A program made the position numbers and the translations under genes. Of a DNA stretch of 64,000 nt, positions 339-41,838 are shown one piece after another. This DNA is from Streptomyces violaceusniger Tu 4113 (GTDB lineage Bacteria > Actinomycetota > Actinomycetes > Streptomycetales > Streptomycetaceae), in assembly GCF_000147815.2 (NCBI RefSeq), contig NC_015957.1:558001-622000 (forward strand), in the 5' to 3' direction. Positions within the stretch are counted from its first letter, which is position 1. Each line of letters opens with the position of its first letter. Under the pieces are notes generated by a model. That model ran no database searches and was not told where the DNA came from. It saw only the letters and a list, made by a program, of their open reading frames with translations.

Positions 339-1355
339 TCAGAGGAGCGGGGCGGTGAGGAGGGGCAGGGCGCGGGTGAGCTCGCGCTCCCAGTAGGGCC
401 AGGTGTGGGTGCCGGGGCCGTAGAGGTGGGCGGTGACGGCCAGGCCGTGGGTGCGGGCGCGGCGCACATAGCGCTGGGCCATCTCGCCGAGGCCGCGCTC
501 CAGGGTGTCCTCGGGGCGGTCCGGAGGGTCGAGGGGGCCGGGGGTGCCGTTGCCGCAGGCGACGTAGAGCGGGTAGCCGCGGGGGAGTCGGGGGATGAGG
601 GCGTACGGGTTGTGGGCGCCCCAGAGCGCGGACTGGGCGGCGGGGTCTCCCCACAGGGCCGTCGGGTCGGCGCCCTGGCCCGTAAGGATGCCTTGGATGC
701 CGGCGGGATCCAGGGTGGTGTGGACGACACCGCTGAAGGACGCCGCCGCGCGGAACAGGCGGGGGTGGCGGGCGGCGTAGGACAGGGCGCCGAAGCCGCC
801 CATGGACAGGCCGGCGATCGTACGGCGGCCGTTGGCCCGTAAGGCGCGCTCCAGGAGGGGGCGCAGCTCGGCCAGGTGGAAGGTCTCCCAGGCGGGCGCA
901 CCGTAGTGGCCGCCGTTCCACCAGTCGGAGTAGAAGCCCACGGGGCCGCCCTCGGGGGAGACGATCAGGGCCGGGGTGCCGGCGGTGATGGCCTCGACAT
1001 CGGTGTTGAGGGTCCACGCCTCCCAGCCGGGGCCCGGGTCGCAGCAGCCGTGGAGCAGGTAGAGGACGGGCCAGCGGTGGTGGGGCCGGCGGTCGTAGCC
1101 GGTGGGGAGGAGGACGCGGGCATGGCCCTCGCGGCCCAGGGCGGGCGAGTCGATCGTCAGGTCGAGGACGCGCTCGCTGACGCGGTCCGCGGCGATGAGG
1201 CGCGCGCGGGCGGGCGTCCGGCGTCCGGCAAGGGCTTCCGCGGGACGGGCCTTCGAGGGGCCGGGCTCCCGGGAGCGGGCTTCGGCGGTGGACGTCAGGA
1301 GCGGTGCGGCGGCCAGCGCGGTGAGCGCGGCGACGGCTCTGCGGCGGTTCGGCAT
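339..1355 (-). CDS. Secreted alpha/beta-hydrolase of the esterase D / antigen 85 type
   Basis: 338-residue serine hydrolase, probably an acyl-ester hydrolase acting outside the cell. Residues 1-26 form a secretion signal (MPNRRR then a hydrophobic alanine/leucine stretch ending near AEA); the RRR suggests Tat export is possible. The alpha/beta-hydrolase fold is marked by YLLHG (99-103, oxyanion side), the nucleophile elbow GLSMGG (182-187, Ser184) and a GTHTW motif with His317. The start is chosen at an ATG preceded by GAAGGAG; in-frame codons further upstream lack a ribosome site and signal. It lies divergent from the TetR gene, which may regulate it. The substrate cannot be told from sequence. 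Confidence 0.85.
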
Positions 1356-1522
1356 CGTTCGTTCTCCTTCGCGGTGCTGCGTACGGAGCTGAACGGGGCA
1401 CGGTGCGTGGTCAGTTGAAACTTTGATGTCGGCGGGCGGCCGTGGCAAGAGCGCCGACAGTGGTCCCACGTAGGCTTAACCGCGATATGTGTGCGGGGGC
1501 ACGATCGAAGGGGGCGGCCTGC

Positions 1523-2191
1523 GTGGGCGGGGCGACGGGGAGCAAGCGCGTACCACGGGCGGTGCGGGAGCAGCAGATGCTGGACGCGGGGGTACGGGCC
1601 TTCGCGCGCAGCGGCTATCAGAACGCCTCGATGGACGACATCGCCGAGTTGGCCGGGGTTTCCAAACCGCTGGTCTATCTCTATCTCAACTCCAAGGAAG
1701 AGCTGTTCACGGCGTGCATACGGCGGGAGGCCGTGGCGCTGGTGACCGCGGTGCGCGCCGCCGTGGAGCGGGACGCGCCCGCCGACCGGCAGTTGTGGAG
1801 CGGGCTGAGCGGCTTCTTCGCACATGCGGCCGAACATCCCGACGGCTGGACGCTGTTGCATGTGCAGGCCCGTACGCATGGGCAGCCCTACGCGCGCGAA
1901 GTGGCCGCGATGCGGGCGGAGATCGTGGAGTTCGTGACGCAGCTGATAGGGGCGGCGGCGCGGGAGCACGCCCGCGGCGCGGCGCGCGCCCGGACCCTCG
2001 CGGGCACCGAGGTGTCCGGGCTTGCGCACGCGCTGGTGGGCGCGGCCGAGTCGCTCGCGGACTGGGCGGGGGACGGGAGAGTGGGCGGGCACTCGGCCAA
2101 GGAGGCCGCGGCCACCCTGATGAACTTCGCCTGGGCCGGGCTGGGGAATTTGCTCCAGGGGACGGGATGGTCGCCCGAGCGGGTGGGGTGA
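1523..2191 (+). CDS. TetR-family transcriptional regulator
   Basis: A 222-residue dimeric repressor-type protein. The N-terminal helix-turn-helix covers about residues 14-62 (REQQMLDAGVRAFARSGY, then DDIAELAGVSKPLVYLYL), and the rest is the helical ligand-binding domain. The GTG start is chosen because GAAGGGGG lies upstream and because relatives begin just before the conserved KRVPRAVREQQML segment; an in-frame ATG at 1487 is possible but has no ribosome site. It is divergent from the secreted esterase, with about 170 bp between the two starts, an arrangement typical of local regulators. The end of the gene is inside a tandem repeat (GGGTGGGGTGA at 2181 and 2197). The inducer is unknown. Confidence 0.85.
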   Translation: MGGATGSKRVPRAVREQQMLDAGVRAFARSGYQNASMDDIAELAGVSKPLVYLYLNSKEELFTACIRREAVALVTAVRAAVERDAPADRQLWSGLSGFFAHAAEHPDGWTLLHVQARTHGQPYAREVAAMRAEIVEFVTQLIGAAAREHARGAARARTLAGTEVSGLAHALVGAAESLADWAGDGRVGGHSAKEAAATLMNFAWAGLGNLLQGTGWSPERVG

Positions 2192-2319
2192 GGTGTGGGT
2201 GGGGTGACGCGCTCGGGTCGGCTGGGGCCCGGGGGTCGGCTGACGCGTGGATCGGCTGAGGTGTGGGCCGGTCTGGCCTCAGGCGGGTCTCAGGCGGGCG
2301 TCAGGCGGGCCTCAGGCGG
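2181..2319. repeat. Two tandem arrays in the gap between the TetR and lipase gene ends
   Basis: The exact 11-mer GGGTGGGGTGA lies at 2181-2191 and 2197-2207; the first copy contains the tetR stop codon. At the other side TCAGGCGG occurs at 2279, 2290, 2301 and 2312, an exact 11-bp period of four units, with the unit at 2312 holding the lipase stop codon (TCA on this strand). Both convergent genes therefore end inside their own tandem array. No clear terminator hairpin was seen between them. Confidence 0.85.
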
Positions 2320-3475
2320 TGCAGTTGCCCCGCGTCGGCTCGTCCGCCAGCCGCCCGGCCATCCAGTCCAGGGCCGCCGGGAGCCCGGTCAGCGCCGTGG
2401 TGACATGGTCGAGCGGATAGTCCTGCCACTCCACCGGCGCGCCCCGGGCGCACCAGCGGGTGCGCAGCGCCTCGCCGACCCGGTACGGGATCAGCTCGTC
2501 CAGCAAGCCCTGGTAGAGATAGACGGGGCGGTCGGGGGAACGGGTGCCCAAGTACGAGGACCGCAGGGCGAGTTGCCAGGCCGGGCTGGTGAGCGGGTCC
2601 CTTACGGTCACCTCGGACATGCGCTGGAAGAGCCCCGCGATGGTGCTGAGGGCCACGCAGTTCCGCTTGATGAAGTCCACATAGCCGCGGCCCCGGTCGT
2701 TGAGGTACGCGTCGAGCCGCAGCGCGGGGAAGGCCGCGTCCTGTCCGGTGAGCGCCATAAGGGCGAGCCCGGCACCCGCTCCGCCGTCGTTGTAGTCGAG
2801 CGTCGTGGGGAGATCGGCGGGCACGCCTCCGGCGACCGTGCCCTTCAGCCGCAGTTCGGGGGCGTAGGAGGCGTGCAGTTCGGCGGCCCAGCCGGCCGCC
2901 TGGCCGCCCTGGGAGTAGCCCATGATGCCGACGGGAGTGTCCGGTGAGAGCCCCGCCTCCGGAAGGCGCTGGGCGGCGCGCGCCGCGTCCAGGACGGCAT
3001 GTCCCTCGGACCGGCCGGCCGTATAGGTGTGGTCGCCCGGGGTGCCCAGGCCCTCGTAGTCGGTGACGGCGACGGCCCAGCCGCGGCGCAGGGCGAGGTC
3101 GATGAGCTGGGCCTCGATCGAGGTGCCCTGCGGGAACCGGCCGGAGACCGCACAGTCGTCGGAGAGGCCGACGGCGCCGATGCCCCAGGTGAGGAGCGGT
3201 CGGGGGCCCTGTTTGCCGTCGTCGGGGACGACGACCGTGCCGGAGACGACGTCGGGGCGGCCGGTGGCGGTGGTCGAGCGGTAGGTGATGTGCCATGCCC
3301 TGGTCGCGGTCGGCACCCCGGGCTGGGTCCGGAAGGCGGTGGGGGCGGAGGTGAGGATGTCACCGGGTCTGCCGGTACCGGCGGCCGGGGCGCCCGAGAT
3401 GGCCGCGGCGGCGGGTGGCGCCGAGGCCAGGGCCAGTGCGGCGAGGGTGGCGAGCACGGTGGTGCGGATGCGCAT
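2312..3475 (-). CDS. Secreted lipase (secretory lipase / LIP family)
   Basis: A 387-residue extracellular hydrolase of the LIP family (related to Candida antarctica lipase A and to actinobacterial triacylglycerol lipases). Residues 1-25 are a classical signal peptide (MRIRTTVLATLAALALASA, then alanines). The nucleophile elbow is GYSQGG at 186-191 with Ser188. A DYEGLGTPG stretch at 139-147 is typical of the family, and a late DHVTTA segment probably supplies the catalytic histidine. Two cysteines (near 108 and at NCTA at the C-terminus) could matter outside the cell. GGGAGA precedes the ATG. The last codons sit in an 11-bp tandem repeat. It is transcribed toward tetR and away from the AraC-type regulator gene's promoter side. 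Confidence 0.85.
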   Translation of the reverse strand: MRIRTTVLATLAALALASAPPAAAAISGAPAAGTGRPGDILTSAPTAFRTQPGVPTATRAWHITYRSTTATGRPDVVSGTVVVPDDGKQGPRPLLTWGIGAVGLSDDCAVSGRFPQGTSIEAQLIDLALRRGWAVAVTDYEGLGTPGDHTYTAGRSEGHAVLDAARAAQRLPEAGLSPDTPVGIMGYSQGGQAAGWAAELHASYAPELRLKGTVAGGVPADLPTTLDYNDGGAGAGLALMALTGQDAAFPALRLDAYLNDRGRGYVDFIKRNCVALSTIAGLFQRMSEVTVRDPLTSPAWQLALRSSYLGTRSPDRPVYLYQGLLDELIPYRVGEALRTRWCARGAPVEWQDYPLDHVTTALTGLPAALDWMAGRLADEPTRGNCTA

Positions 3476-3574
3476 ACGGCTCTCCCAACGGTGCGGGGGC
3501 GGCGCTCTGGTGGTGCCGAGTCGCTGTGGGAGGACCGTAAGGACGGGCGGAATGTCTGTGGCTGACCGCGGCGC

Positions 3575-4666
3575 TCAGATTTGCTGACTCCATGTCTCAT
3601 GTCGGTATGCGCCCGGGGTTGACCCGGTCCAGCGCCGGAACGCCCGGTGGAACGCCGTGTCCTCGGAGAAGCCCAGCCGTGCCGACAGGTCGGCGATGGG
3701 TTCGACCCCCTCGGCCAGGCTGCTGACCGCCTCGTCACGCCGCACGGTGTCCTTGAGCTCCTGGAAGGACGTGCCCTCCTCCCGTAGCCGCCGCCGCAGC
3801 GTCGCCGGGCTGACCGCCAGCCGGGCGGCGACCTCGGGAAGCTCCGGGAGCCGCGTGGTGCGCCGGCCGCGTGGGCTCGTCGCCGGGCCGCCGCGCGCCC
3901 GCAGCGCCCCGGTGAGCGCGTGCCGTACCTGCTCGGCGACGGTCGTCCCGTAGGCGCGGCGGCTGAGCAGCCCGGCGGGCGCGTGCCGCAGCAGCGTCTG
4001 GAGCGTGGACTCGTCCTGGACGACGGGGGCGGTCAGCCAGCGGCGGTCGAAACCGGCCGCGGTGCGCGGTGCGCCGAAGCGGGGCGGGCAGCCGAAGAGC
4101 GGCTCGTAGTCGTCGGCGTACGGGGGCGGGGGATACGCGAACTGGGCCCACAGCAGCGGGACCCGGCGTCCGATCAGCCAGCCGGCGAGCCGGTGCCAGA
4201 TGAGCATGAGCCATTCGGCGACGATGTGGTGCTCGGCCGCCGTAAGGCCGTCAGCATGCGGGCCCAGCCCGCCGCGCAGGGCCAACACCGCCTCCCGGCC
4301 GTGGCCCTCGCCGCGCTCCAGGGCCAGATTGGGTCCGCCGGGGAAGAGCCGGTAGAAGCGCGCCCCGCGCTCCACCGCCGTGCCGAGGTCGGGGCAGCCC
4401 AGCGAGGCGTAGCACATCATCGCGAAGGTGCCGGGGCGGCTGCGGATGGTCCCCAGCCCCAGGAACTCGTCCCCGGTGGCCCGGTGCAGGGCGCGCACCA
4501 GCCGGGCGAACTGCTCGGGGGAGACGCGGGCGCGGTCGTCGGTGAGCAACAGCGGGGGTATCCGGGCCCGTTGCAGCAGGGGGACGGTGTCGAGGCCGAG
4601 CCGCTGCGCACCGCGCAGCGCGGCCCGTACATGGTGCACCGTCACCGTCCGCCGCCCGCGCCCCAT
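3575..4666 (-). CDS. AraC-family transcriptional regulator (arabinose-binding-like N-terminal domain)
   Basis: 363-residue regulator of the OruR/ArgR-like branch of the AraC family. The first 200 or so residues form the N-terminal sensing domain (QRLGLDTVPLLQRARIP, then the FARLVRAL region), as in Arabinose_bd proteins. The last 85 residues carry two helix-turn-helix motifs: the RLAVSPATLRRRLREEG block and ARLGFSEDTAFHRAFRRWTG, the second being the family signature. The same-strand lipase lies 100 bp downstream and is a plausible target. The ATG start has only a weak ribosome site; a GTG a few codons in is an alternative. The inducer is not predictable. Confidence 0.85.
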   Translation of the reverse strand: MGRGRRTVTVHHVRAALRGAQRLGLDTVPLLQRARIPPLLLTDDRARVSPEQFARLVRALHRATGDEFLGLGTIRSRPGTFAMMCYASLGCPDLGTAVERGARFYRLFPGGPNLALERGEGHGREAVLALRGGLGPHADGLTAAEHHIVAEWLMLIWHRLAGWLIGRRVPLLWAQFAYPPPPYADDYEPLFGCPPRFGAPRTAAGFDRRWLTAPVVQDESTLQTLLRHAPAGLLSRRAYGTTVAEQVRHALTGALRARGGPATSPRGRRTTRLPELPEVAARLAVSPATLRRRLREEGTSFQELKDTVRRDEAVSSLAEGVEPIADLSARLGFSEDTAFHRAFRRWTGSTPGAYRHETWSQQI

Positions 4667-4731
4667 GGTCGAAACCGTAGCCCGATCGGGGCGTTGCGTC
4701 AGCGGTGCGTCGCTGGACCCCTACGCGGCGT

Positions 4732-4764
4732 GAGCACCTTAAGGACGACGCGAGCGCCTTACGG
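4732..4764. promoter_or_regulatory. Direct-repeat pair between the araC-type gene and the cupin gene
   Basis: GAGCACCTTAAGG (4732-4744) and GAGCGCCTTACGG (4752-4764) are direct repeats spaced exactly 20 bp, about two helical turns. They lie between the divergent starts of the AraC-type regulator and the DUF985 gene. AraC-family proteins often bind such direct repeats, so an operator is possible; this is inference. Confidence 0.35.
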
Positions 4765-4809
4765 GCTATCCTCGACGGCCCGGACGGACCTGTGAAAGCG
4801 GTGAGGGAC

Positions 4810-5256
4810 ATGACCACATCCCGGCGGCCCGCGACAGCCGAATGGCTGGGCCTCGAGCCCCATCCGGAGGGCGGCTGGTACCGGGAGACCTGGCGCAGCG
4901 ATGTCACGGTGCGGCTGCCGGGGTACCAGGGCGAGCGCGCGACGGCCACGGCGATCTACTTCCTGCTGACTCCCGGTGAGGAGTCCCGCTGGCATGTGGT
5001 GCGCTCGGCCGAGCTGTGGCTGTGGCACAGCGGCGGCCCGCTGCAGCTCCGGCTGGGCGGTACGGGCGACGGCCCGGAGGCGACCCCCACGGAGCTGGTC
5101 CTGGGCTCCGATATCGCCTCCGGCCAGCGCCCCCAGGCCGTCGTCCCGCCGGGCACCTGGCAGTCGGCCCGTCCGGCGGCGGACGAGGAGGTCCTGGTGA
5201 GCTGTGTGGTCTCCCCGGGCTTCGACTTCGCCGACTTCCGGCTGTTGGAGGACTGA
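4810..5256 (+). CDS. DUF985 cupin-fold protein
   Basis: 148-residue single-domain cupin of the DUF985 (Cupin_5) family, cytosolic, with no signal. The family opening LEPHPEGGWYRETWRS is at residues 15-30, followed by AIYFLL, the SRWHVVRSAELWLWHSG block and a PPGTWQSARP turn, which together form the small beta-barrel. Cupin metal-type histidines are visible (WHVV, WHSG). The function of the family is not established; some members are annotated as epimerase-like without proof. The ATG at 4810 follows GTGAGGG; GTG codons at 4792 and 4801 are alternatives. The gene runs toward the cold-shock gene and shares the terminator between them. Confidence 0.85.
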   Translation: MTTSRRPATAEWLGLEPHPEGGWYRETWRSDVTVRLPGYQGERATATAIYFLLTPGEESRWHVVRSAELWLWHSGGPLQLRLGGTGDGPEATPTELVLGSDIASGQRPQAVVPPGTWQSARPAADEEVLVSCVVSPGFDFADFRLLED

Positions 5257-5293
5257 CCGTCCCCGCGAGGCTCCGGGAAAAGGCAGAAAAGGC

Positions 5294-5333
5294 AGGAGCC
5301 CCGTCTCCCCGCCAGGCGGGGAGCAGGGCTCCT
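5294..5333. terminator. Strong two-part hairpin terminator between convergent genes
   Basis: Outer stem AGGAGCCC (5294-5301) pairs with GGGCTCCT (5326-5333); inner stem CTCCCCGCC (5305-5313) pairs with GGCGGGGAG (5315-5323). On the minus strand it is followed by a T-rich run (read from 5293 downwards), so it ends the cold-shock transcript well; it should also stop the DUF985 transcript from the other side. Confidence 0.85.
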
Positions 5334-5350
5334 TAGGTGGTGCTGCTGGA

Positions 5351-5554
5351 TCAGACGGGGCTGACGTTCTCCGCCTGTGGGCCCTTCGGGCCCTGAGTGA
5401 CGTCGAAGGTCACGGCCTGGTTCTCCTCAAGAGAACGGAAGCCGGTCGCGTTGATCGCGGAGTAGTGAACGAAGACATCGGGGCCGCCGCCGTCTTGGGC
5501 GATGAAGCCGAAGCCCTTCTCGGCGTTGAACCACTTGACGGTTCCGGTAGCCAT
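5351..5554 (-). CDS. Cold-shock protein (CspA family)
   Basis: 67-residue OB-fold nucleic-acid-binding protein acting as an RNA chaperone. The RNP1 motif KGFGFI is at residues 13-18 and RNP2 DVFVHY at 26-31, and the length is standard for the family. The ATG is set by GGAGGG six bases upstream; an in-frame ATG 45 bases earlier would add a non-homologous tail. The leader is long for a 67-codon gene (about 120 nt if the promoter at 5682 is right), as is usual for cold-shock genes. It is followed at once by a strong hairpin terminator, so it is monocistronic. Confidence 0.95.
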
Positions 5555-6799
<1,245 letters not shown>

Positions 6800-32787: not shown

Positions 32788-35601
32788 CTAGGCCGTCGCC
32801 CTTGCCCTCGCCGCGTAGGCCCGTACGTCCGCGTCCGGGTCGGACCGAACCGAGGACAGCGCTTCCCGCGCCGCGCCCACCTCCCGCTCCGCCAGCGGCA
32901 GCAACGCCAGCACCGCCGCCTTCCGCACATCGGCGTGCGGGTCGGCCAGGGCCCGCACCAGCGCCGGGACGCCAAGTTCCGGCGCGGCAGCGGACAGCGC
33001 CGTCGCCGCCCCCTTGCGCACCTGCCAGGCGGAGTCGCCCAGCGCCGCCACTACCTCCGCGTCCAGCGGCGCGGGACACCCCGCCGAGGCCAGGGCCTCC
33101 AGGGCGGCGGCCCGCACGAGGACGTCCGGGTCCCGCAGCAGCGGCGTGAGCAGCCGCCGGGCGTCCGCCGCCCGGCCGCCGGAGGCCAGGGTGCCCAGCG
33201 CCCCCGCCGTCGCCACCCGCACCTCTCGCGACGCGTCCGCGGCTCCCGGCTCCAGCGCGGTGAGCGCGTCCACCGACACCAGCCCCCGTACGGCCTGGAT
33301 ACGGACCCCGATCGCCGCGTCCGTCAGCGCCCGGGCGAACAGTTCCGCGTCGCCGAGGCCCAGCGCGCGCAGGACGTCCAGCGCCGCCGCCCGCACCACC
33401 GGATCGGCCCCGGCCAGTCCGTGGACCAGGGGTTCACGCAAAGCGGCGTCCGGGGGCAGCACCTCGACCAGCTCCCGCAGCGAGGCCGCGGCATCGGCGC
33501 GTACGCCGGCGTCCGCGTCGGCCAGGGCCGCCGCGAGGACCGGGCCGGTGCCCGGCGGTGCGGTCTCGGTCAGGGTGGCGACGGCGGCCCGGCGCACCGC
33601 GGGGTCGGGATCGGCCAGATAGGGCCGGAGAGCGGGGAGTTCCGGCTGCTCCTCGGCGAGGGCGAGGAGTTCGAGGATGCGCGGGGAGGCGGCGGTGAGG
33701 GCCGTACGGAGGTCGGGGGCGCCCGTGCCCTCCTTACGGTCGTCATCCGCCCGTCCCGCCCCCGCCCCCGCCCCCGCCCGCGGAGCGCTTTCGCGCGGCC
33801 CCGCCGTGGCCACCTGCTCCGGCCGCACCTCGCCGAGCGGGCGGGATGGCCCGCCCGTCGGCGCGTACTCCGCCACCGGGACGAGATACGGCGCGACCGG
33901 ACGCGCGGTGAACTCCATCGCCCCCGCCGCCGACTTGCGCAGATCCAGATGGTGCAGCCAGCCCTCGTCGTCGCGCACCGGATGGTCCGTGCGCTCGTGA
34001 TAGAGCCCCCACCGGCTCTCCGTCCTGGCCAGCGAGGAGCGCGCGGCCATCTCCGCGCAGTCGCGGATGAAGGTCACCTCGGCGCAGCGCATCAGCTCAT
34101 GGGGCGTACCGGCGCCCATCGTGGCGATGTCCCCGCGCATCCGCTCGAACGCCTCGATGGCGAGCGAGAGCCGGGCGCCGCTCTTGGGCGGGGCCACATA
34201 GTCGTTGACCAGGCGCCGGAGCTTGTACTCGACCTGCGGCTGCGGCGGCCCCTCGGGGTTCCGCAGCGGGGCGTAGATCAGCTCATGTGCGTCGGCGAGC
34301 TGGTCCGGGGGCAGTTCGCCCTGGTACGCCTGGTATCGGGCGGCGTCCGCGCCCGCCAGGTCGCCGAAGACAAAGGCACCGATCATGTAGTTGTGCGGTA
34401 CGCAGGCCAGGTCACCGGCCGCGTACAGCCCCGGGACGGTGGTCCGGGCATGGGCGTCCACCCGCACCCCCGAGGCCGAGTGGCCGCCGCACAGCCCGAT
34501 CTCGGAGATGTGCATCTCCACGTCATGGGTGCGGTAGTCGTGGCCGCGCCCCGCGTGGAAGGTGGCGCGGGTGGGGCGTTCGGTGGAGTGCAGGATGGAC
34601 TCCAGCGCGGCCACCGACTCCTCCGGCAGATGGCTGAGCTTGAGGTAGACCGGGCCGCGTTCGCTCGCCACCTCCGCCGCGAACTCCGACATCATCTGCC
34701 CCGACCAGTAGTCGGAGTCCACGAACCGCTCACCGTGCCGGTTGACCTGGTAGCCGCCGAAGGGATTGGCGACATAGGCGCAGGCCGGGCCGTTGTAGTC
34801 CTTGATCAGCGGATTGATCTGGAAGCATTCGATCCCGGTCAGCTCGGCCCCGGCGTGATACGCCATGGCGTAGCCGTCGCCCGCATTGGTGGGATTCTCG
34901 TACGTCCCGTAGAGATAGCCGCTCGCGGGCAGGCCGAGCCGGCCGCAGGCGCCGGTGGCCAGGATCACCGCACCGGCGCGCACGGTCACGAAGTGGCCGG
35001 TGCGGGTGTGGAATCCGGCGGCGCCGACGGCCCGGCCGCCGGCGGTGAGGACCCGGACCGGCATCACCCGGTTCTCGATGCGGATCCGCTCGCGCATCTC
35101 ACGCCGCCGCAACTGCCGGTAGAGGACCTTCTTGACGTCCTTGCCCTCGGGCATCGGCAGGACGTACGAGCCCGAGCGGTGCACCTGGCGGACCGCGTAC
35201 TGGCCGTGCTCGTCCTTCTCGAACTTCACGCCGTACCGCTCCAGCCGCTGGACCATGGCGAAGCCGCGGGTCGCGGTCTGGCGGACGGTGGACTGGTCGA
35301 CGATGCCGTCGTTGGCGCGGGTGATCTCGGCTACGTAGTCATCGGGTTCGGCCCGGCCGGGGATGACCGCGTTGTTGACGCCGTCCATGCCCATGGCGAG
35401 CGCGCCCGAGTGGCGGACATGCGCCTTTTCGAGGAGGAGGACGGAGGAGCCGTGCTCGGCGGCGGTGAGCGCCGCCATGGTGCCGGCCGTGCCGCCGCCG
35501 ATGACGAGGACGTCGCAGGACAGCTCCTCGGCCGCGTCGAGGGCGGGAATCTCCATGGGCGCGGCGGTCTCCATGTGCTCCCTGTGCTCCCTTGTGTTCA
35601 C
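32788..35601 (-). CDS. AprA/FrdA-like flavoprotein fused to C-terminal HEAT repeats
   Basis: 937-residue fusion. Residues 28-570 form a fumarate-reductase/succinate-dehydrogenase-type flavoprotein, closest by eye to adenylylsulfate reductase alpha (AprA): FAD motif DVLVIGGGTAGTMAALTAAEHG, then EKAHVRHSGALAMGMDG, GYAMAYHAGAELTGIECFQ and GLYAAGDLACVPHN. Proline/alanine-rich linkers lie near 590-625. From about 627 to the end run tandem HEAT repeats of about 30 residues (RPYLADPDPAVRRAAVATL, then ALADADAGVRADAAASLREL and so on), a protein-binding solenoid. No signal peptide, so cytosolic. The GTG start has AAAGG upstream; the ATG at 35574 is an alternative. It is last in an operon with a ferredoxin and an ABC importer. 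It probably oxidises or reduces the imported substrate, passing electrons to the ferredoxin. Substrate unknown. Confidence 0.85.
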   Translation of the reverse strand: MNTREHREHMETAAPMEIPALDAAEELSCDVLVIGGGTAGTMAALTAAEHGSSVLLLEKAHVRHSGALAMGMDGVNNAVIPGRAEPDDYVAEITRANDGIVDQSTVRQTATRGFAMVQRLERYGVKFEKDEHGQYAVRQVHRSGSYVLPMPEGKDVKKVLYRQLRRREMRERIRIENRVMPVRVLTAGGRAVGAAGFHTRTGHFVTVRAGAVILATGACGRLGLPASGYLYGTYENPTNAGDGYAMAYHAGAELTGIECFQINPLIKDYNGPACAYVANPFGGYQVNRHGERFVDSDYWSGQMMSEFAAEVASERGPVYLKLSHLPEESVAALESILHSTERPTRATFHAGRGHDYRTHDVEMHISEIGLCGGHSASGVRVDAHARTTVPGLYAAGDLACVPHNYMIGAFVFGDLAGADAARYQAYQGELPPDQLADAHELIYAPLRNPEGPPQPQVEYKLRRLVNDYVAPPKSGARLSLAIEAFERMRGDIATMGAGTPHELMRCAEVTFIRDCAEMAARSSLARTESRWGLYHERTDHPVRDDEGWLHHLDLRKSAAGAMEFTARPVAPYLVPVAEYAPTGGPSRPLGEVRPEQVATAGPRESAPRAGAGAGAGRADDDRKEGTGAPDLRTALTAASPRILELLALAEEQPELPALRPYLADPDPAVRRAAVATLTETAPPGTGPVLAAALADADAGVRADAAASLRELVEVLPPDAALREPLVHGLAGADPVVRAAALDVLRALGLGDAELFARALTDAAIGVRIQAVRGLVSVDALTALEPGAADASREVRVATAGALGTLASGGRAADARRLLTPLLRDPDVLVRAAALEALASAGCPAPLDAEVVAALGDSAWQVRKGAATALSAAAPELGVPALVRALADPHADVRKAAVLALLPLAEREVGAAREALSSVRSDPDADVRAYAARARATA

Positions 35602-35617
35602 GGAGTTGGGCCTTTCA

Positions 35618-35702
35618 CATTCCGAGGGATTCGCATACCGGGGGATTCGCATGCCGAGCGATTCGCATAGCGAGGGATCCGAGTCACATGCCGAGGGATT
35701 CG
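35618..35702. repeat. 16-bp tandem array spanning the ABC ATPase stop codon
   Basis: CATNCCGAGGGATTCG or close variants occur at 35618, 35634, 35650 and 35666 in exact 16-bp steps, then after five extra bases at 35687. The last copy is the 3' end of the ATPase gene (codons for ESLGM and the stop). The array therefore occupies the 82-bp gap before the AprA-like gene. Confidence 0.9.
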
Positions 35703-36475
35703 AGGACCTGACGCCGCAGCGCGACGGTCGCCGCCGCGTCATGGGCGGCGCGCTCGCGCGGATGCGGGATGTCCAGCACCCGGCCGCCGCCATCCGCATC
35801 GCCCAGCAGCGCCACCCGGTCGCCGAGGAACAGCGCCTCGTCCACGTCGTGGGTGACGAAGACGACGGTGGCGCGGGTGCCCTCCAGCACCTCGACCAGC
35901 AGCCGCTGCATCCCGGCGCGGGTCTGTGCGTCGAGGGCGCCGAACGGCTCGTCCATGAGGACGGCGCGTGGCGCGCCGACGAGCGCCCGGGCGAGCTGGG
36001 CGCGCTGCCGCTGGCCGCCCGAGACCCGGTGCGGAAGCCGCCCGGTGTGCTCGGCGAGCCCGACGCGCTCCAGCCAGGCCGCGGCCCGGTCGCGGCGCGC
36101 CGTGCGCGGTACGCCCCTTATGGCGAGCGGAAGTTCGACATTGGCGCGCAGGGTGCGCCAGGGCAGCAGCGCGTCCTCCTGGAAGATCAGCGCCCGGTCG
36201 GCGTCCGGCCGGGTGATCTGCGTGCCGTCCTGGGTGACCCGCCCGCCGAGCGCGGGCAGCAGCCCGGCGAGGGTACGCAGCAGGGTGGATTTGCCGCATC
36301 CGGACGGGCCGACAACCGTAAGGATGTCACCGGGCGCGACCTCAAGATCGAGACCGTGCAGGACGGGTGCGCCGGGGCGGCCGAGGGCGGCGTCCTCCAG
36401 GCGCAGCCGTACGCCCGGCGGGGCGGCTTCGGCGGTGGGCGGGGCCGGGGTGGTGGTGACGTCGGATGTGCTCAC
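35684..36475 (-). CDS. ABC importer ATPase (SsuB/TauB/NrtD type)
   Basis: 263-residue nucleotide-binding subunit of an importer for small anions or sulfonates. Walker A GPSGCGKST, the Q-loop FQEDALLPW, signature SGGQRQRAQLARAL, Walker B AVLMDEPFGALDAQTR and the switch histidine in VFVTHDVDEALFLGDRV are all intact. The GTG start overlaps the permease stop by 4 bp, so the two are coupled. The last codons seed a 16-bp tandem array that fills the gap to the AprA-like gene. Substrate class is inferred from the family only. Confidence 0.93.
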   Translation of the reverse strand: MSTSDVTTTPAPPTAEAAPPGVRLRLEDAALGRPGAPVLHGLDLEVAPGDILTVVGPSGCGKSTLLRTLAGLLPALGGRVTQDGTQITRPDADRALIFQEDALLPWRTLRANVELPLAIRGVPRTARRDRAAAWLERVGLAEHTGRLPHRVSGGQRQRAQLARALVGAPRAVLMDEPFGALDAQTRAGMQRLLVEVLEGTRATVVFVTHDVDEALFLGDRVALLGDADGGGRVLDIPHPRERAAHDAAATVALRRQVLESLGM

Positions 36476-37374
36476 GGGGTGGCTGCCTCCTTGCGCGAGG
36501 GCGCCGGCCGGCCGGTGGTCTCCGTACGGGGCAGCCAACGGGTCAGCCGCCGTCCGGCCAGCTCGACCGCCGTGGAGGTGAGCCAGCCGAGCACGCCGAT
36601 CGTGGTCATGCCGACGAAGACGCCCGGGTAGTCGACGATCGTGTAGTCCTGCCAGGTGCGGTAGCCGACCCCGTAGGCGCCGGAGATCATCTCGGCGGAG
36701 ATCACACAGATCCATGAGACGCCGATGCCGACGGAGAGCCCGCCGAGGATCCCGGGCAGCGCCCCCGGCAGGACAACGGAGACCAGGACGCGCCCGCGCC
36801 CGCCGCCCATGGTCAGCACCGCCTCCTCCCATACGGGGGCCAGCGCGCGGACCGCGTGCCGGGTGCTCACCATGACCGGGAAGAAGGCGGCGGTGAAGGT
36901 GATGAAGACGATCCCCTGCTCATTGCTGGGGAACATCAGGATCGCCACCGGCACCAGCGCGATGGCCGGGATCGGACGGCACACCTCGAGGACGGGGCCG
37001 AGCAGATCGGAGACGAGAGGGGAGCGGGCGATGGCGGTGCCGACCGCCACGCCGAGCACGGCGGCGAGGGCGAAACCGGTGAGGATGCGGGTGAGGGAGT
37101 CGGTCAGGTCCTGCCAGTAGGCGCCGGTGCCGAGGCGGTCGGCGAACTCCCGGATTACATCGGTGGCGGAGGGGAACTGCGCGAAACGCAGCCACAGATT
37201 GATGTCGAGGGTGGTGAGCGCCTGCCACAGGCCGAGGGCGGCCAGCAGCGAACCGGTGCGCAGGGCGTAGCGGACCCAGGGACGGCGCCGGAGCGGCCGG
37301 GGCGCGGTGGCGGCCCGGGCTCCGGGGGCTCCGGGGGCCGGGCGGGTCCTTACGGGCGCGGTGGGCGCGCTCAT
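36472..37374 (-). CDS. ABC importer permease (SsuC/TauC type)
   Basis: 300-residue membrane subunit with about six helices. The coupling-helix motif EEAVLTMGGGRGRVLVSVVLPGALPGILGGLSVGIG sits in the second half, as in BPD_transp_1 permeases. A 50-residue proline/alanine/arginine-rich cytosolic start (TRPAPGAPGARAATAPRP) precedes the first helix. ATGA overlap with the substrate-binding-protein gene upstream and GTGA overlap with the ATPase downstream show tight coupling. Confidence 0.92.
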   Translation of the reverse strand: MSAPTAPVRTRPAPGAPGARAATAPRPLRRRPWVRYALRTGSLLAALGLWQALTTLDINLWLRFAQFPSATDVIREFADRLGTGAYWQDLTDSLTRILTGFALAAVLGVAVGTAIARSPLVSDLLGPVLEVCRPIPAIALVPVAILMFPSNEQGIVFITFTAAFFPVMVSTRHAVRALAPVWEEAVLTMGGGRGRVLVSVVLPGALPGILGGLSVGIGVSWICVISAEMISGAYGVGYRTWQDYTIVDYPGVFVGMTTIGVLGWLTSTAVELAGRRLTRWLPRTETTGRPAPSRKEAATP

Positions 37375-38729
37375 CGGGCTGCCGCCAGTGCCGCGGCGTA
37401 GCTGATCGTGCGCGCGCCGGGGTGGGCGGCGGCCCAGGTGCGGGCGTTGTCCGGGGTGACGAAGGCCCGCAGGTCGCGGCCATTGCGGACCCACACCGCC
37501 CGGTCCGCGAACCACCGGGTGCCGGTGGTCGCGTCGGGCACGTAGGCGGCCCGGACGCGGTCGCGGTGGCTTCCGGCGAAGCGCAGCAGTCCGGTGGGGG
37601 TCGCGAAGGTGCGGAGCCGGTCCTCGCCCTTGAGCCAGAGCTGGTTCGGCGAGGCGGGCGGGGTGGCGCGCAGCGCCTTCGCATAGGCGTCGGCACTTCC
37701 GTACGCCCGTTTGAGATAGCGGTCGTCGACAAAGGACGGCACATCGACCGGGCCCACCAGCTTGGCGGCGCGCAGCACCGGGACGTCCTTCTCGAGCGCG
37801 GTGGTCAGCCGTGGTTTGAGGGTGGGGTCGAAGGTCGCGATGCCGCCGGTGCCGTTGTAGAGATAGACCACTTCGGGCGGCAGCCCCGTCGCGGTGGCGA
37901 CCTTACGGGTGGCGTCGAGCGGATGGGCGCGCAGATGGCGGGTGGCGTCGATCTGGGCGGCGAGGAACGCCTGGACGACGGCCGGGCGCTGTTCGGCGAA
38001 CGCCTCGCGCGTGGTGACCCCGTGGAAGGTGGGGAGGTTCAGCCGGGCGCCGTCGTACAGCGCCTTGGCCTTGCCCTGGAAGGCGAGCAGCCCCGGCCAG
38101 GCCACGAACTGCGAGAGGGCGTCCGCGCTGCCCGCTTCGAGGGCCGAGGCCCCCACGGCGGGCTGCTGGTTGAGCTTGTGGATACCGCCCTCGGGGTCGA
38201 TGCCCGCCTGTTGCAGAGCCCGTACGAGCGTGCCGTCCGCGGCGGAGCCGACGCTGGTGGAGACGTTCTTGCCGCGCAGCCCGGACAGGGCGCGCAGCTT
38301 GGAGCCGGGTGCGGTGAGGACCGTGTTGAGGCCGCCGCGCAGGTTGTAACCGGTGACCGAGACGAGGCGAGTCGGTGCGTTCAACTGGGTGCCGCGCCCG
38401 GAGTTGATCAGGAGCGGGAAGTCGCCCATCGAGCCGATGTCGACCTTACCGGCGATCATCTGGGCGGTGATGGGCGCTCCGGTGGCGTAGTCCTCCCACT
38501 TCACGTTGTACGTATGGCCGTCGCGGCGGCCCAGGGCACGCAGCTCGCGTTCGAAGGAGCCGAGCGAGCGCAGCAGGGTGCCCGCGGTCACGGTGTTGAT
38601 GGTCTTGGACTGGTAGCCGACGGTGACGGTCACGGTCTTGCCGCCCGCTTCCGCGTTCCCGCCGCAGCCCGTGAGGGACAGCAGCAGGGCGCCGGCGGCG
38701 AGGGCCGACGGAAGGGTCGTGCGCTGCAT
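37371..38729 (-). CDS. ABC importer substrate-binding lipoprotein (SsuA/NrtA-like)
   Basis: 452-residue exported lipoprotein. The signal ends in a lipobox, LLSLTGCGG with Cys24. The mature part has the NMT1/SsuA-like type II binding fold: TVTVGYQSKTINTVTAGTLLR, QMIAGKVDIGSMGDFPLLIN and GKNVSTSVGSAADGTLVRALQQAGID. The protein is longer than the usual 330 residues; the extra C-terminal 120 or so (FVDDRYLKRAYGS, then a tail ending in AAHPGARTISYAAALA) also contains a possible second domain that I do not recognise. AAAGG precedes the ATG. It follows the ferredoxin gene by 11 bp, unusual for a transporter, and argues for joint function. Confidence 0.9.
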   Translation of the reverse strand: MQRTTLPSALAAGALLLSLTGCGGNAEAGGKTVTVTVGYQSKTINTVTAGTLLRSLGSFERELRALGRRDGHTYNVKWEDYATGAPITAQMIAGKVDIGSMGDFPLLINSGRGTQLNAPTRLVSVTGYNLRGGLNTVLTAPGSKLRALSGLRGKNVSTSVGSAADGTLVRALQQAGIDPEGGIHKLNQQPAVGASALEAGSADALSQFVAWPGLLAFQGKAKALYDGARLNLPTFHGVTTREAFAEQRPAVVQAFLAAQIDATRHLRAHPLDATRKVATATGLPPEVVYLYNGTGGIATFDPTLKPRLTTALEKDVPVLRAAKLVGPVDVPSFVDDRYLKRAYGSADAYAKALRATPPASPNQLWLKGEDRLRTFATPTGLLRFAGSHRDRVRAAYVPDATTGTRWFADRAVWVRNGRDLRAFVTPDNARTWAAAHPGARTISYAAALAAAR

Positions 38730-38740
38730 CGAGGGGCCTT

Positions 38741-38968
38741 TCACCTCAAGAGATAGGGCATGTTGACCGTGACCGCGCCGGTGGGACAGCGGGCGGCGCA
38801 CGGGCCGCAGTACCAGCACTCGTCGACGTGCATGTACGCCTTACCGCTGTCGGGGTGGATCGCGAGGGAGTCGAGGGGGCACATGTCCACGCACAGGGTG
38901 CAGCCGTCGATGCACTTGGACTCGTCGATCGTCACGGGCACATCGGCACGTTGGGGCGCCAGCGGCAT
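38741..38968 (-). CDS. 2x[4Fe-4S] ferredoxin, AprB-like partner
   Basis: 75-residue electron carrier. Two complete 4Fe-4S motifs are present: Cys19, 23, 26 and 30 in CIDGCTLCVDMCP (with a four-residue first gap, C-x3-C, unlike the usual C-x2-C) and Cys51, 54, 57 and 61 in CWYCGPCAARCP. The C-x3-C gap and the CWYCGPC cluster are reminiscent of AprB-type ferredoxins, which pair with AprA flavoproteins. The ATG has TGGAGA upstream. It is the second gene of the operon, 63 bp after the gntR gene. It is the likely redox partner of the AprA-like protein. Confidence 0.88.
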   Translation of the reverse strand: MPLAPQRADVPVTIDESKCIDGCTLCVDMCPLDSLAIHPDSGKAYMHVDECWYCGPCAARCPTGAVTVNMPYLLR

Positions 38969-39031
38969 GGCTGTCTCCAGAAAGGGCGTGAAGGGGCGAA
39001 AGGTGGTCGCGGGGGAGGCGGTCGGGGAGGC

Positions 39032-39802
39032 TCAGGCGGTGCGGCGCAACTGGCCGCTCATGGTGATCCGGTCGCCGCGGAACCGGATGAACTCCAGGTC
39101 CACCGGGCGTCCATCGCACAGATGGGTGAGCCGCTCCAGCATCAGGACCGCCGCACCGCGCGGGGCCTGCAGAACGGCGGCCGAGTGGGCGTCGGCGTTG
39201 ACGGCCTCGAGGGTGATCCCGGCGGTGCCCAGGGACTGTCCGGTGATCTTCTCGATCAGCCGGAAGACATCGGTGTTCTCCAGATCGGCGCCGATCAGCT
39301 CGGCGCCGATGTCCATCGGGAGGTAGGTGAGGTCGAGGGAGAGCGGGAGTCCGCCGAGCCGGCGCAGCCGCTCGACGTAGAGGACATCGGTACGGGCGGG
39401 GACGCACAGCCGGTCGGCGACGCAGGCGGGCGCGGGGACCGGGCCGACGGTGCGCACCTCATTGGTGACCCGGCCGTGTTCGTGAAGGGTCTCGGCCAGG
39501 CCCATCAGCCGGTCGAGGCCGTGCGGGTACTTCTCGGCGACGACGACCGTGCCCACCCCGGGCTGCCGCTCCACCAGGCGCTCGGCGCGCAGCAGGTCGA
39601 GCGCCTGGCGCACGGTGTTGCGGGAGGCGCCGTAGTCCTGGCCGAGCGCGTCCTCCAGGGGAAGTACGCCTCCGGGGAAGCCGCCGGTGAGGACCTGGTG
39701 GCGGAGGAGATCGGCGAGTTGCCGTGCCCGGTCGGCGCGGAGCCGCCGGCGGCGCGCGGCGGCGACCGGCGGGGCGTGCTCGCGGGGGCGTTCGGCTGGC
39801 AT
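39032..39802 (-). CDS. GntR-family regulator with UTRA ligand domain
   Basis: 256-residue regulator of the HutC subfamily. A winged helix-turn-helix (about 22-90) contains LEDALGQDYGASRNTVRQALDLLRAERLVERQPGVGTVVV. The UTRA-type ligand domain (about 95-250) contains VLYVERLRRLGGLPLSLDLTYLP and LEAVNADAHSAAVLQAPRGAAVLMLERL. It is the first gene of the operon and probably controls it in response to the imported compound. The upstream 160 bp contain no operator I can name. The basic stretch at residues 16-27 may aid DNA binding. Confidence 0.9.
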   Translation of the reverse strand: MPAERPREHAPPVAAARRRRLRADRARQLADLLRHQVLTGGFPGGVLPLEDALGQDYGASRNTVRQALDLLRAERLVERQPGVGTVVVAEKYPHGLDRLMGLAETLHEHGRVTNEVRTVGPVPAPACVADRLCVPARTDVLYVERLRRLGGLPLSLDLTYLPMDIGAELIGADLENTDVFRLIEKITGQSLGTAGITLEAVNADAHSAAVLQAPRGAAVLMLERLTHLCDGRPVDLEFIRFRGDRITMSGQLRRTA

Positions 39803-39967
39803 CGGCCGGCTCCGGGGTTTGCTGGTCGGCGGGATCGTACGGGGACCATACCGACGGGGCCGGGCCGATGGTGTTGCCGAAGTGTTGCGCCACCTGATGG
39901 CGGCTTTCGTACCGCTGCCGCCTGCGGTTTTGTCGCCGCGGCGGCAAGATCTGCCACTGCGCGCGGC

Positions 39968-39999
39968 GGGCCCCTGGCGCGGTGGTGCGCCAGGGGCCC
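39968..39999 (-). terminator. Perfect 13-bp hairpin terminator after the lipoprotein gene
   Basis: GGGCCCCTGGCGC (39968-39980) pairs with GCGCCAGGGGCCC (39987-39999) around a 6-base loop. It lies 28 bp past the end of the minus-strand lipoprotein gene and before the gntR promoter region. It has no T tail. Confidence 0.85.
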
Positions 40000-40027
40000 G
40001 GGCGCCGGACGGGGCCGGCGCCGTGGT

Positions 40028-40537
40028 TCAGCCGGTCGGGAGGTCGGTCGGGATGCCGCTCGGCAGATCGGTCGGGATGCCGGAGGGAAGCGACGTCGGC
40101 AGGCCCGAGGGAAGGTCGCTGGGCGAGGTCGCCTTGACGAAGGTGTCGTTCTTGGCGAGGGCGTCCCAGTCGACCGTGAGGGTCTTGCCGTCCGCGCCCA
40201 GGGTGACCTTGCCCGCGCTGCGCTCGGTGTTGCCGTCGGCGCACTTGAGCATGAGCATCTTCCCGCCCATGTCGGCGTATTCGCCGTTGCAGATGTGCTT
40301 GCCGGCCATCAGGACGGCCTGCTTGCCGCTGATGGACAGGATGACGGCCTCGTCACCGGACTTCGCCACATAGGTGCCGGAGACCTTCGCGTCCGCGCCC
40401 CCCTCCGCCGGGGCGCTCGACGCGGAGGATGGGTCCTTGGAGGTGTCCTTCTTGTCGTCGCCTCCGTCGCTGCCACATGCGGTCAGTAGCAGGGCGGCCG
40501 CCGCCACCGTGCCGGCGATGCCCACTGTCTTGTTCAC
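40028..40537 (-). CDS. Small secreted lipoprotein of unknown function
   Basis: 169-residue lipoprotein with lipobox LLTACGSD (Cys21) and an aspartate/lysine/serine-rich tether (KKDTSKDPSSASSAP). The core (about 50-140) reads GTYVAKSGDEAVILSISGKQAVLMAG and KHICNGEYADMGGKMLMLKCADG, with two cysteines that may pair; it looks like a small beta-barrel. The C-terminal 30 residues are a tandem repeat of SLPSGIPTDLPSGIPTD type, encoded by repeated DNA. No known family was recognised. It has its own strong terminator. Confidence 0.8.
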   Translation of the reverse strand: MNKTVGIAGTVAAAALLLTACGSDGGDDKKDTSKDPSSASSAPAEGGADAKVSGTYVAKSGDEAVILSISGKQAVLMAGKHICNGEYADMGGKMLMLKCADGNTERSAGKVTLGADGKTLTVDWDALAKNDTFVKATSPSDLPSGLPTSLPSGIPTDLPSGIPTDLPTG

Positions 40538-40587: not shown

Positions 40588-41838
40588 TCAGGGCGTGGCC
40601 GGGACGACCTGGCCGGTCACCTCGCCCAGGCCGATACGGACCCCCTGCGGGCCCGGCGCCCAGGCCGTGATGGTCACTTCGTCACCGTCCTCCAGGAACG
40701 TCCGGGTGGCGTCGGGGAGACGCAGGGGCCGGCGGCCGCCCCAGGTGAGTTCGAGGAGACAGCCGAGCTCGTCCGGGCGCGGCCCGCTGACCGTGCCGGA
40801 GGCGAAGACGTCGCCGGTGCGCAGCGAGGCGCCGTTCACCGTCAGATGCGCGAGCTGCTGGGCCGCGGTCCAGTACATGGCGGAGAAGGGCGGACGGGAG
40901 ACCGTGTGGCCGTTGAGGGCGACCTCGAGACGCAGATCGAGCCCGCCGGGCTCGGCGGCGCTGTCGTCCAGGTAGGGGAGGGGCGGGACGTCGCGGGCGG
41001 GCGGGCTGGTACGGGCGGCGGTGAGGGCCTCCAGCGGGGTGACCCACGCGGCAAGGGAGGTGGCGAAGGACTTGCCGAGGAAGGGGCCGAGCGGGCGGTA
41101 CTCCCATGCCTGGATGTCGCGCGCGGACCAGTCGTTGAGGAGACAGACGCCGAAGACGTGGTCGTGGAACCCGGAGAGGGGCACCGGTGTATTAACAGTG
41201 GAAGGGGCGCCGACGACGAAGGCCACCTCCGCCTCGAAGTCGAGGCGCAGGGAGGGGCCGAAGACCGGAGTGGAGGAGGAAGCGTGTGGTGCGGAGGTAT
41301 CGGCCGGGGGCAGATGCTGGCCCTGTGGGCGGACGATGGGCGTGCCCGAGACGACGATGGTGCCGGCCCGGCCGTGGTAGCCGATCGGCATGTGCTTCCA
41401 GTTGGGGGTGAGCGCGTCGCCGTCGGGGCGGAAGATCCTGCCCGTGTTGGTGGCGTGGTGCTCGCTCGCATAGAAGTCGGCGTAGTCGGCCACCTCGAAG
41501 GGGAGATGGAGCGCGACGGTGGGGAGGGGGTGCATCAGGGGCTCGATGGTCGACCGGTGCGCCGGGTCGGTGAGCCAGTCGAGCACCTCGGCGCGGACGG
41601 CCTGCCAGACCGGGCGGCCCGCGGCCATCAGCGGGTTGAGGGTGTCGGCACCGAGCTGTTCGGCGTGCGGAGAGGCGGCGGCGGCCGCGGCGGCGCCGGC
41701 GTCCAGCACATGGTTTCCGTAGCGCACCCCGATTTTCCGCAGATGAGGAGCGTGCGGCGTGGTGAAGACGCCATAGGGGAGGTTGTGCGGGCCGAAGGGG
41801 TCGCCTTCGGGCAGGTCCAGCGGGGATCGCTGCGGCAT
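40588..41838 (-). CDS. Fumarylacetoacetase
   Basis: 416-residue enzyme that hydrolyses fumarylacetoacetate to fumarate and acetoacetate, the last step of tyrosine breakdown through homogentisate. The N-terminal FAA domain is present (FGPHNLPYGVF) and the catalytic domain contains DFYASEHHATNTGRIFR, WKHMPIGYHGRAGTIVVSGTPI, LDFEAEVAFVVG and LLNDWSARDIQAWEYRPLGPFLGKSF, which include the metal ligands and catalytic His in family members. The rest of the tyrosine pathway is not nearby, so it stands alone. The length matches eukaryotic-type FAH. Confidence 0.93.
   Translation of the reverse strand: MPQRSPLDLPEGDPFGPHNLPYGVFTTPHAPHLRKIGVRYGNHVLDAGAAAAAAASPHAEQLGADTLNPLMAAGRPVWQAVRAEVLDWLTDPAHRSTIEPLMHPLPTVALHLPFEVADYADFYASEHHATNTGRIFRPDGDALTPNWKHMPIGYHGRAGTIVVSGTPIVRPQGQHLPPADTSAPHASSSTPVFGPSLRLDFEAEVAFVVGAPSTVNTPVPLSGFHDHVFGVCLLNDWSARDIQAWEYRPLGPFLGKSFATSLAAWVTPLEALTAARTSPPARDVPPLPYLDDSAAEPGGLDLRLEVALNGHTVSRPPFSAMYWTAAQQLAHLTVNGASLRTGDVFASGTVSGPRPDELGCLLELTWGGRRPLRLPDATRTFLEDGDEVTITAWAPGPQGVRIGLGEVTGQVVPATP

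Follow-up and report, generated by a model that had tools for sequence, protein, structure and literature searches.

A widespread six-gene operon of Streptomyces violaceusniger joins a sulfonate-type importer, a ferredoxin and an AprA-related flavoprotein with HEAT repeats: a possible sulfur-acquisition unit

What might a bacterial cell do with an operon that places a sulfonate-type ATP-binding cassette (ABC) importer, a small ferredoxin and a probable relative of sulfur-oxyanion reductases behind a single regulator? Such an operon lies in a stretch of 64,000 nucleotides from Streptomyces violaceusniger Tu 4113 (contig NC_015957.1, positions 558,001 to 622,000), which was analysed as a whole and is called the window here. 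Six minus-strand genes at window positions 32788-39802 encode a GntR/UTRA regulator, a ferredoxin, a substrate-binding protein, a permease, an ATPase and a flavoprotein fused to HEAT repeats. An earlier reading made from the letters alone (the sequence-only reading) had described six linked genes, and all of them are present with the close spacing that it gave: as read from the sequence, 11 bp separate the ferredoxin and binding-protein genes, and 4-bp overlaps join the binding protein to the permease and the permease to the ATPase. The gaps between GntR and ferredoxin (63 bp) and between ATPase and flavoprotein (82 or 109 bp, by start codon) are wider. We suggest that the unit probably serves the acquisition of an organosulfur anion. 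Our best explanation, to which we assign a probability of about 0.46, is a self-contained sulfur-acquisition unit that combines sulfonate-like uptake with ferredoxin-linked flavin chemistry releasing sulfite.

The unit is real and widely distributed, with soil actinobacteria among its carriers. A scan of GTDB genomes recovered at least 564 encoded relatives of the flavoprotein, and the best 80 of these provided the actinobacterial loci compared here, from Streptomyces, Actinomadura, Nonomuraea, Mycobacterium, Nocardia, Amycolatopsis and other genera. The best matches in these 80 loci lie on one strand and in one order, GntR-ferredoxin-binding protein-permease-ATPase-flavoprotein. The full order recurs in 77 of them, and two of the remaining three are truncated by contig ends. 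Gene by gene, the ATPase was recovered in all 80 loci, the ferredoxin, binding protein and permease in 78 each and the GntR gene in 77, the missing genes tracing to the contig-edge loci L083 and L091 and to L079, where GntR alone is missing; L093 and L102 contain additional DNA within the unit. Because one strand and one order are shared by the 80 named actinobacterial loci, the co-occurrence of the genes is far beyond chance. This synteny survey bears out the single conserved unit proposed from the sequence alone, as the order is uniform across the actinobacterial loci. The distribution of the flavoprotein itself is patchy: 16 of 61 relatives and 12 of 396 genomes sampled from the phylum encode one that scores above the family cut-off.

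Beyond the actinobacteria, the parts recur in cyanobacteria and in alpha- and betaproteobacteria in a looser arrangement. A plasmid collection yielded 147 matching records, distant paralogues included, and 22 of these reach at least 60% identity. From 40 of the 147 records we chose 14 plasmid loci, a non-random selection of mostly annotated ones, whose annotation comes from the incomplete PLSDB gene tables; their hosts are cyanobacteria, rhizobia, Methylobacterium, Burkholderiales and Tsukamurella. The flavoproteins of these loci are 547-589 amino acids long, and the HEAT part is a separate gene in 13 of the 14 loci and fused in the actinobacterium. All 14 include a ferredoxin gene, and 12 have a cognate importer beside the flavoprotein. 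Since the HEAT gene is separate in 13 of these loci, the fusion represents, within the loci examined, an actinobacterial version of the unit, the parts of which co-occur in four bacterial groups.

The flavoprotein gene begins either at a GTG codon (32788..35601, minus strand, 937 amino acids) or at an ATG codon (32788..35574, 928 amino acids), and its flavin adenine dinucleotide (FAD) part and HEAT part occupy about 33895-35532 and 32791-33690, respectively. The protein belongs to the NCBIfam family PRK13800 (NF010374), with 1598.2 bits against a cut-off of 1196 over residues 82-1001 of the 1003-residue frame, and three unfused flavoproteins that we examined belong to PRK08275 (NF006131). The next-best model for all four proteins was PRK06854, the alpha subunit of adenylyl-sulfate (APS) reductase, with 265-322 bits. 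The succinate dehydrogenase/fumarate reductase (SDH/FRD) model TIGR01812 scored lower on the same proteins (143-167 bits), and the 143 bits of the window's flavoprotein stay far under its cut-off of 567.3. Among solved structures, the best relative was 8a8o_A, the alpha subunit of the 3'-phosphoadenylyl-sulfate (PAPS) reductase (PAPSR) of Methanothermococcus thermolithotrophicus, with 185 bits, followed by AprA (111 bits) and SDH (82 bits), and 8a8o was also the top Foldseek match. The predicted structure of the FAD part was too poor for the placement of residues, and VIA-align tied FrdA with PAPSR. When we calculated trees, the system proteins, PAPSR and AprA were split from SDH, NadB-like proteins and AsfA with support of 97/96 and 97/93, the SDH, NadB and TcuA-like labels of the rows being assigned by reading. 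The first tree had long branches; the second, which omits L005 (a misread row) and five other rows of the first, shows the branching among the system rows and AprA/PAPSR as an unresolved fork. These comparisons suggest a likely kinship with the PAPS and APS reductases.

To compare the active sites, we then aligned 21 system proteins to AprA, PAPSR and SdhA and used the residue numbering of AfAprA. The sequence-only reading had tied its AprA assignment to the AprA active-site residues, and these are half retained. N74 and H398, which we take to be positioned near the flavin, are conserved in all 21 system proteins, but R265, W234 and Q145 are replaced by L, Y and V, R317 falls in a gap and E141 is changed to R or K, each in 21 of 21. 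R265, R317, W234 and Q145 are the sulfate- and nucleotide-binding residues. We do not class the protein as an APS or PAPS reductase because these five residues are replaced or absent throughout, and the loss of the sulfate-binding residues led us to reject such a reductase for an aerobic heterotroph. On the SDH side, all eight positions compared differ in all 21 proteins: H45, H242, E255, R286, H354 and R399 of SdhA correspond to G, N, Y, Q, I and a gap, T254 to A and D287 to M. In the E. coli SdhA numbering, H45 is the covalent FAD residue and H242, E255, R286, H354 and R399 the catalytic ones. We rejected an ordinary fumarate reductase or succinate dehydrogenase on the model scores together with these SdhA residues. 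Invariant motifs stand there instead, such as ECxQxNPLxKDYNGPxCAYV, YVLPMPxG, DYWSGQM and PHNYMxGAF, and the alignment looks like a third active-site type within the family. 'Fumarate reductase/succinate dehydrogenase', the name of the PRK13800 model and of most named relatives listed, is therefore generic and misleading about mechanism, although the PRK13800 and PRK08275 models do include these flavoproteins; 'AprA-like' likely denotes descent and wiring, not substrate.

The ferredoxin gene (38741..38968, minus strand) encodes a 75-residue protein of the AprB-like 2[4Fe-4S] type (Fer4_7, 42.5 bits) that lacks the C-terminal tail of AprB. Among 119 sequences compared, the AprB-type matches were 3gyx_B (34.6 bits), 8a8o_C (32.0 bits) and 1jnr_B (29.3 bits), and polyferredoxins and others outscore them in sum. 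In the second cluster motif, the first Cys is followed directly by a Trp residue (CW) that aligns with W48 of AprB and W42 of the M. thermolithotrophicus enzyme (MtPAPSR), as checked against 1jnr_B and 8a8o_C with positions counted by hand. This Trp is present in all 92 ferredoxins found across 94 loci, and the AprB-like ferredoxin of the sequence-only reading thus carries the AprB electron-transfer tryptophan. W42 of MtPAPSR is a proposed participant in electron transfer (PMC10322725). This conserved Trp is the best evidence for a putative AprAB-like wiring between ferredoxin and flavoprotein.

MtPAPSR (PDB 8a8o), the best PDB match, resembles the system in that an FAD subunit is paired with a 2[4Fe-4S] ferredoxin subunit carrying the Trp. 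It differs in that the identity is 28% and the equivalents of R265 and R317 are kept; moreover, the system has its own ABC importer and regulator as well as the HEAT part. In the PAPS and APS reductases, sulfite is released via electron transfer from ferredoxin to FAD (PMC10322725). AprAB (PDB 1jnr, 2fja, 3gyx) stands, though not decisively, on the same side of the trees and has N74, H398 and W48 of AprB in common with the system; however, the system lacks the APS-binding residues and the AprB tail, and its proteins score below the AprAB cut-offs (125.9 against 641.75 bits for aprA, 32.2 against 135.65 bits for aprB).

The importer consists of a lipoprotein-like binding protein with an SsuA/TauA fold and a C-terminal extension (37371..38729), a TauC/SsuC-like permease (36472..37374; PF00528, 62.2 bits) and a TauB/SsuB-like ATPase (35684..36475; PF00005, 100.2 bits), all on the minus strand. 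A phmmer search with the binding protein gave four matches: two are annotated as sulfonate-binding and a third as taurine-binding, and the fourth, 3e4r, bears the name 'nitrate transport protein' (titled SsuA elsewhere). The predicted model of the binding protein has a predicted local distance difference test (pLDDT) score of 84.8, and ranks 1-8 of the Foldseek search are all of SsuA/TauA type (E 5e-19 to 2e-16); further proteins with this fold, among them DszB and Thi5, come after these. The SsuABC/TauABC-like importer of the sequence-only reading is therefore upheld for the fold of the binding protein and the families of permease and ATPase, but the scores lie under the curated cut-offs (SsuA_fam 110.6 against 163.5; TauB 210.0 against 357; TauC 118.1 against 342), and the extension sets the binding protein apart from SsuA and TauA. 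Since these scores fall below the cut-offs, the ligand may differ from the known SsuA/TauA ligands.

The extension of the binding protein spans 37371-37700 in the window and L109:6169-6450 in a Pseudanabaena plasmid locus. These C-terminal residues, about 100 in number, are NosL-like in relatives, with PF05573 found in 13 of 23 at E<=0.1 and one of the 23 just above the Pfam NosL cut-off; no PF05573 match at E<=0.1 was found for the window's own binding protein. On inspection by eye, the extension shows no evident counterparts of the residues with which NosL binds copper. In three cyanobacterial loci, LysR regulators of about 670 amino acids adjoin the system (L109:9670-11670, L121:9307-11343 and L122:9652-11667). 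The one from Pseudanabaena has a C-terminal NMT1/SsuA-like domain that might respond to the ligand of the importer itself.

In the HEAT part, a high-confidence predicted model shows helical hairpins at about residues 631-927, with nine or ten repeats by count. The fusion to about ten repeats seen by the sequence-only reading agrees with this model, but outside the actinobacteria the same part is a separate neighbouring gene. The HEAT part is far less conserved than the FAD part: in a 36-sequence alignment, of which five rows lack HEAT, the only listed invariant column beyond residue 563 is V727. A gene for an Mrp/NBP35 iron-sulfur carrier lies downstream of HEAT in all four cyanobacterial loci, and 7 of the remaining 10 plasmid loci have an adjoining DUF971 gene, so that one or the other is found in 11 of 14. 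A role of the HEAT part as a scaffold or in cluster loading would fit better than a catalytic one.

When we examined the neighbourhood, sulfur genes were found near 9 of the 14 plasmid loci and in 3 of 16 control windows (25 kb, from eight of the same plasmids; Fisher p 0.014), and restriction to those eight plasmids gave 7 of 8 loci against 3 of 16 windows (p 0.0023). These counts were made by eye from annotation tables over about 12 kb, with gene classes picked after the loci had been viewed. TauE and/or YeiH exporter genes adjoin the system in L109, L116, L121 and L122. L110 has cysteine synthase, metX and YeeE/YedE genes, L111 and L114 have an ABC importer with LLM/NtaA-type monooxygenases, L117 has a sulfonate importer and an M20 peptidase, and L120 has MsnO8/LLM, M20 and GNAT genes; in L112, L113, L115, L118 and L119 no sulfur gene was recognised within about 12 kb. 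Among the actinobacteria, an SsuD/LLM-type monooxygenase lies near 9 of 45 full-flank Streptomyces loci and in 0 of 40 other Streptomyces windows (p 0.002, for related and hence non-independent loci); outside Streptomyces, 4 of 32 actinobacterial loci have one nearby. L093 (Antrihabitans sp. YC2-6) carries inside the operon, at 1143-5926, a second SsuABC-type importer (permease and ATPase labelled by reading), an asparaginase-family protein and an M20 peptidase, a hint of an amide-bearing precursor.

According to our best explanation, the SsuABC/TauABC-type importer would admit a small sulfonate-like (sulfur-oxyanion) compound, and in the cytosol the AprB-like ferredoxin would deliver electrons, by way of its conserved Trp, to FAD in the AprA-related subunit. 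The flavin would break the bond to sulfur and release sulfite, which would enter assimilation or, in some cyanobacteria, be exported by TauE/YeiH. The HEAT part might serve as a scaffold joining both redox proteins or aid the loading of iron-sulfur clusters, and the GntR protein would control this operon only. In this scheme we infer the substrate class, sulfite as the product, the direction of electron flow and the role of HEAT. A more specific form, which we hold to be rather unlikely, is an oxygen-independent sulfonatase that would form a third branch of the APS/PAPS reductases, with a rebuilt pocket, electrons from ferredoxin, FAD, a HEAT scaffold and an importer of its own. A major part of the organic sulfur in soil takes the form of sulfonates (PMC4267179). 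The desulfonation routes named in the texts consulted are SsuD/TauD-type oxygenases, with Asf proteins supplying electrons. If the specific form were true, it would provide an alternative to the SsuD/TauD monooxygenases across actinobacteria, cyanobacteria and proteobacteria. More generally, a widespread operon with its own importer and an APS-reductase-related flavoenzyme matching neither known active site would mean a new route or a new substrate.

Several results weigh against the sulfur-acquisition explanation. The canonical aprA model gives the window's flavoprotein 126 bits, under the 143 bits of TIGR01812 (the three unfused flavoproteins score 193, 176 and 152 bits with it), and the AprA-like label of the sequence-only reading therefore holds for PAPSR as the best solved relative and for PRK06854 as the top model outside the protein's own families, but not for the aprA model. 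An approximately unbiased (AU) test of the rival grouping gave p 0.053, so the phylogeny against AprA, FrdA and NadB groups the protein with PAPSR and AprA but does not do so decisively, and the pairwise identities (26-30% to AprA/PAPSR, 26% to SdhA and 28% to AsfA) do not separate the families. Because of the AU value and these identities, we treat the tree kinship as support, not as proof. In most actinobacterial loci, no sulfur gene of the tested kinds lies nearby, and relatives of TauE, YeiH, Mrp and DUF971 were found in 0 of the 80; the sulfur link that had been drawn from the sequence alone is thus seen as an enrichment near part of the loci and is missing from most actinobacterial ones.

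The same parts could also run in the oxidative direction, in which the flavoprotein would dehydrogenate an imported sulfonate or its carbon skeleton and pass electrons to the ferredoxin, any sulfite arising in a later step. The FAD superfamily is rich in dehydrogenases; in M. radiotolerans, FdxA and ferredoxin-NADP reductase genes follow the importer, and in L093 an FAD/NAD-binding reductase gene follows the flavoprotein, either of which could run both ways. Since the best solved relatives are sulfite-releasing reductases (PMC10322725) and the checked SdhA positions all differ, we consider this direction unlikely, if still the strongest of the rivals. In another arrangement, as proposed for AsfAB of Pseudomonas putida S-313, the flavoprotein-ferredoxin pair would be the electron source of a distinct SsuD/LLM-type monooxygenase for oxygen-dependent desulfonation. 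The LLM genes near the nine Streptomyces loci and in L111, L114 and L120 would suit it, whereas the tested monooxygenase kinds are absent near most actinobacterial loci. LLM enzymes usually rely on a free flavin reductase, and one is present in the L087 island, which argues against such a supply role. The parts list does resemble asfRABC (PMC4267179), but the AsfA candidate described below groups elsewhere, and we consider this arrangement unlikely too, slightly behind the oxidative direction. Lowest in our ranking, and quite improbable, is a substrate without sulfur, in which another small anion (pyrimidine, nitro- or phosphonate-like) would be imported and reduced and the sulfur neighbours would be coincidental because such loci sit on metabolic islands. 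The binding-protein fold also suits Thi5/pyrimidine, nitrate and bicarbonate binders, the best models of the GntR protein are PhnF/HutC (below cut-off), and the AprA and SDH pocket residues are both lost; on the other side stand fold-search ranks 1-8 and the enrichment of sulfur genes near part of the loci.

The asfRABC genes of P. putida S-313, which are required for aromatic sulfonates (PMC4267179), likewise comprise a reductase, a ferredoxin, a binding protein with ABC components and a regulator (PMC4267179, PMC2864759). AsfA was a strong lead as a possible ortholog, but comparison with an inferred gene of Cupriavidus metallidurans CH34 does not bear this out. This AsfA candidate (L126:43214-44863), which was placed by hand interpolation from six TauD genes and the locus tags of PMC2864759, is 28% identical, lies outside the system clade on a very long branch and finds its best models in TfrA, SdhA and NadB, with 56 bits for PRK08275 and 44 bits for PRK13800. 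By analogy, the unit perhaps works like Asf, but we do not class it as a member. Elsewhere on the CH34 megaplasmid, at about 793-796 kb (L123:33508-36226), a TcuA/TcuB-like pair (labels by reading) lies downstream of LysR and transposase-like genes, and its TcuA-like gene was ruled out as the asf locus by the locus-tag interpolation. Among open-licence PMC papers searched by family name, gene set and chemistry, no description of the system was found: PRK08275 is unmentioned, and PRK13800 occurs in a single paper, which by its title deals with mycorrhizal fungi. No link to the flavoprotein family was established there for the Bradyrhizobium sulfonate cluster bll6449-6455 or for Rhodococcus IGTS8 proteomics, and a Saccharopolyspora paper concerns TauC/TauD. 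The system that the sequence-only reading called undescribed is thus without a description among these papers, but NCBIfam already has the curated PRK13800 model.

The first gene of the unit (39032..39802, minus strand) encodes a GntR/HutC-type regulator with a UTRA domain (PF07702, 104.5 bits; PF00392, 53.8 bits). Upstream of it lies a conserved promoter/operator region (39840..39960, minus strand) with the elements GTGGCAGATCTT, CCGCAGG, CAGGTGGCGCAACAC, GGCAACACC and TATGGT, in which three conserved blocks stand about 30 bp apart as judged by eye. Of the 78 upstream regions compared, 63 contain TGGCGCAA, with different distances in some mycobacteria. When we searched 31 genomes for the exact composite motif, it was found in five, as a single site each, 3.6-4.3 kb upstream of the flavoprotein; these are five of the 13 genomes with a flavoprotein above the cut-off, and none of the 18 genomes without one had a site. 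In the window's own genome, the single exact site lies in the promoter of the GntR operon; no second one was found, and we rejected a wider regulon of the motif. Two sites appear at 2 mismatches, against one for a reversed-pattern control. Because the exact motif, in the genomes searched, occurs at most once per genome and only at this operon, it points to dedicated single-operon control, and the GntR protein is presumably the factor that binds the promoter blocks. A riboswitch upstream of the GntR gene was considered and rejected, as Rfam gave no match at E<=1 over 38600-40200. A consensus scan found neither sigma-70 promoters nor intrinsic terminators, a result of little weight for such genomes.

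A 16-bp tandem repeat of 4.1 copies (35614-35678; consensus TTCGCATACCGAGGGA on the plus strand) takes up most of the spacer that separates the stop codon of the ATPase gene from the start of the flavoprotein gene, and it resembles reiterated final codons of the ATPase gene. Upstream of the unit, a fumarylacetoacetase-like gene (40588-41838) keeps its position in many Streptomyces loci. It recurs, with NADH dehydrogenase and RecQ-like genes in the vicinity (all labels by reading), as part of the chromosomal synteny of Streptomyces.

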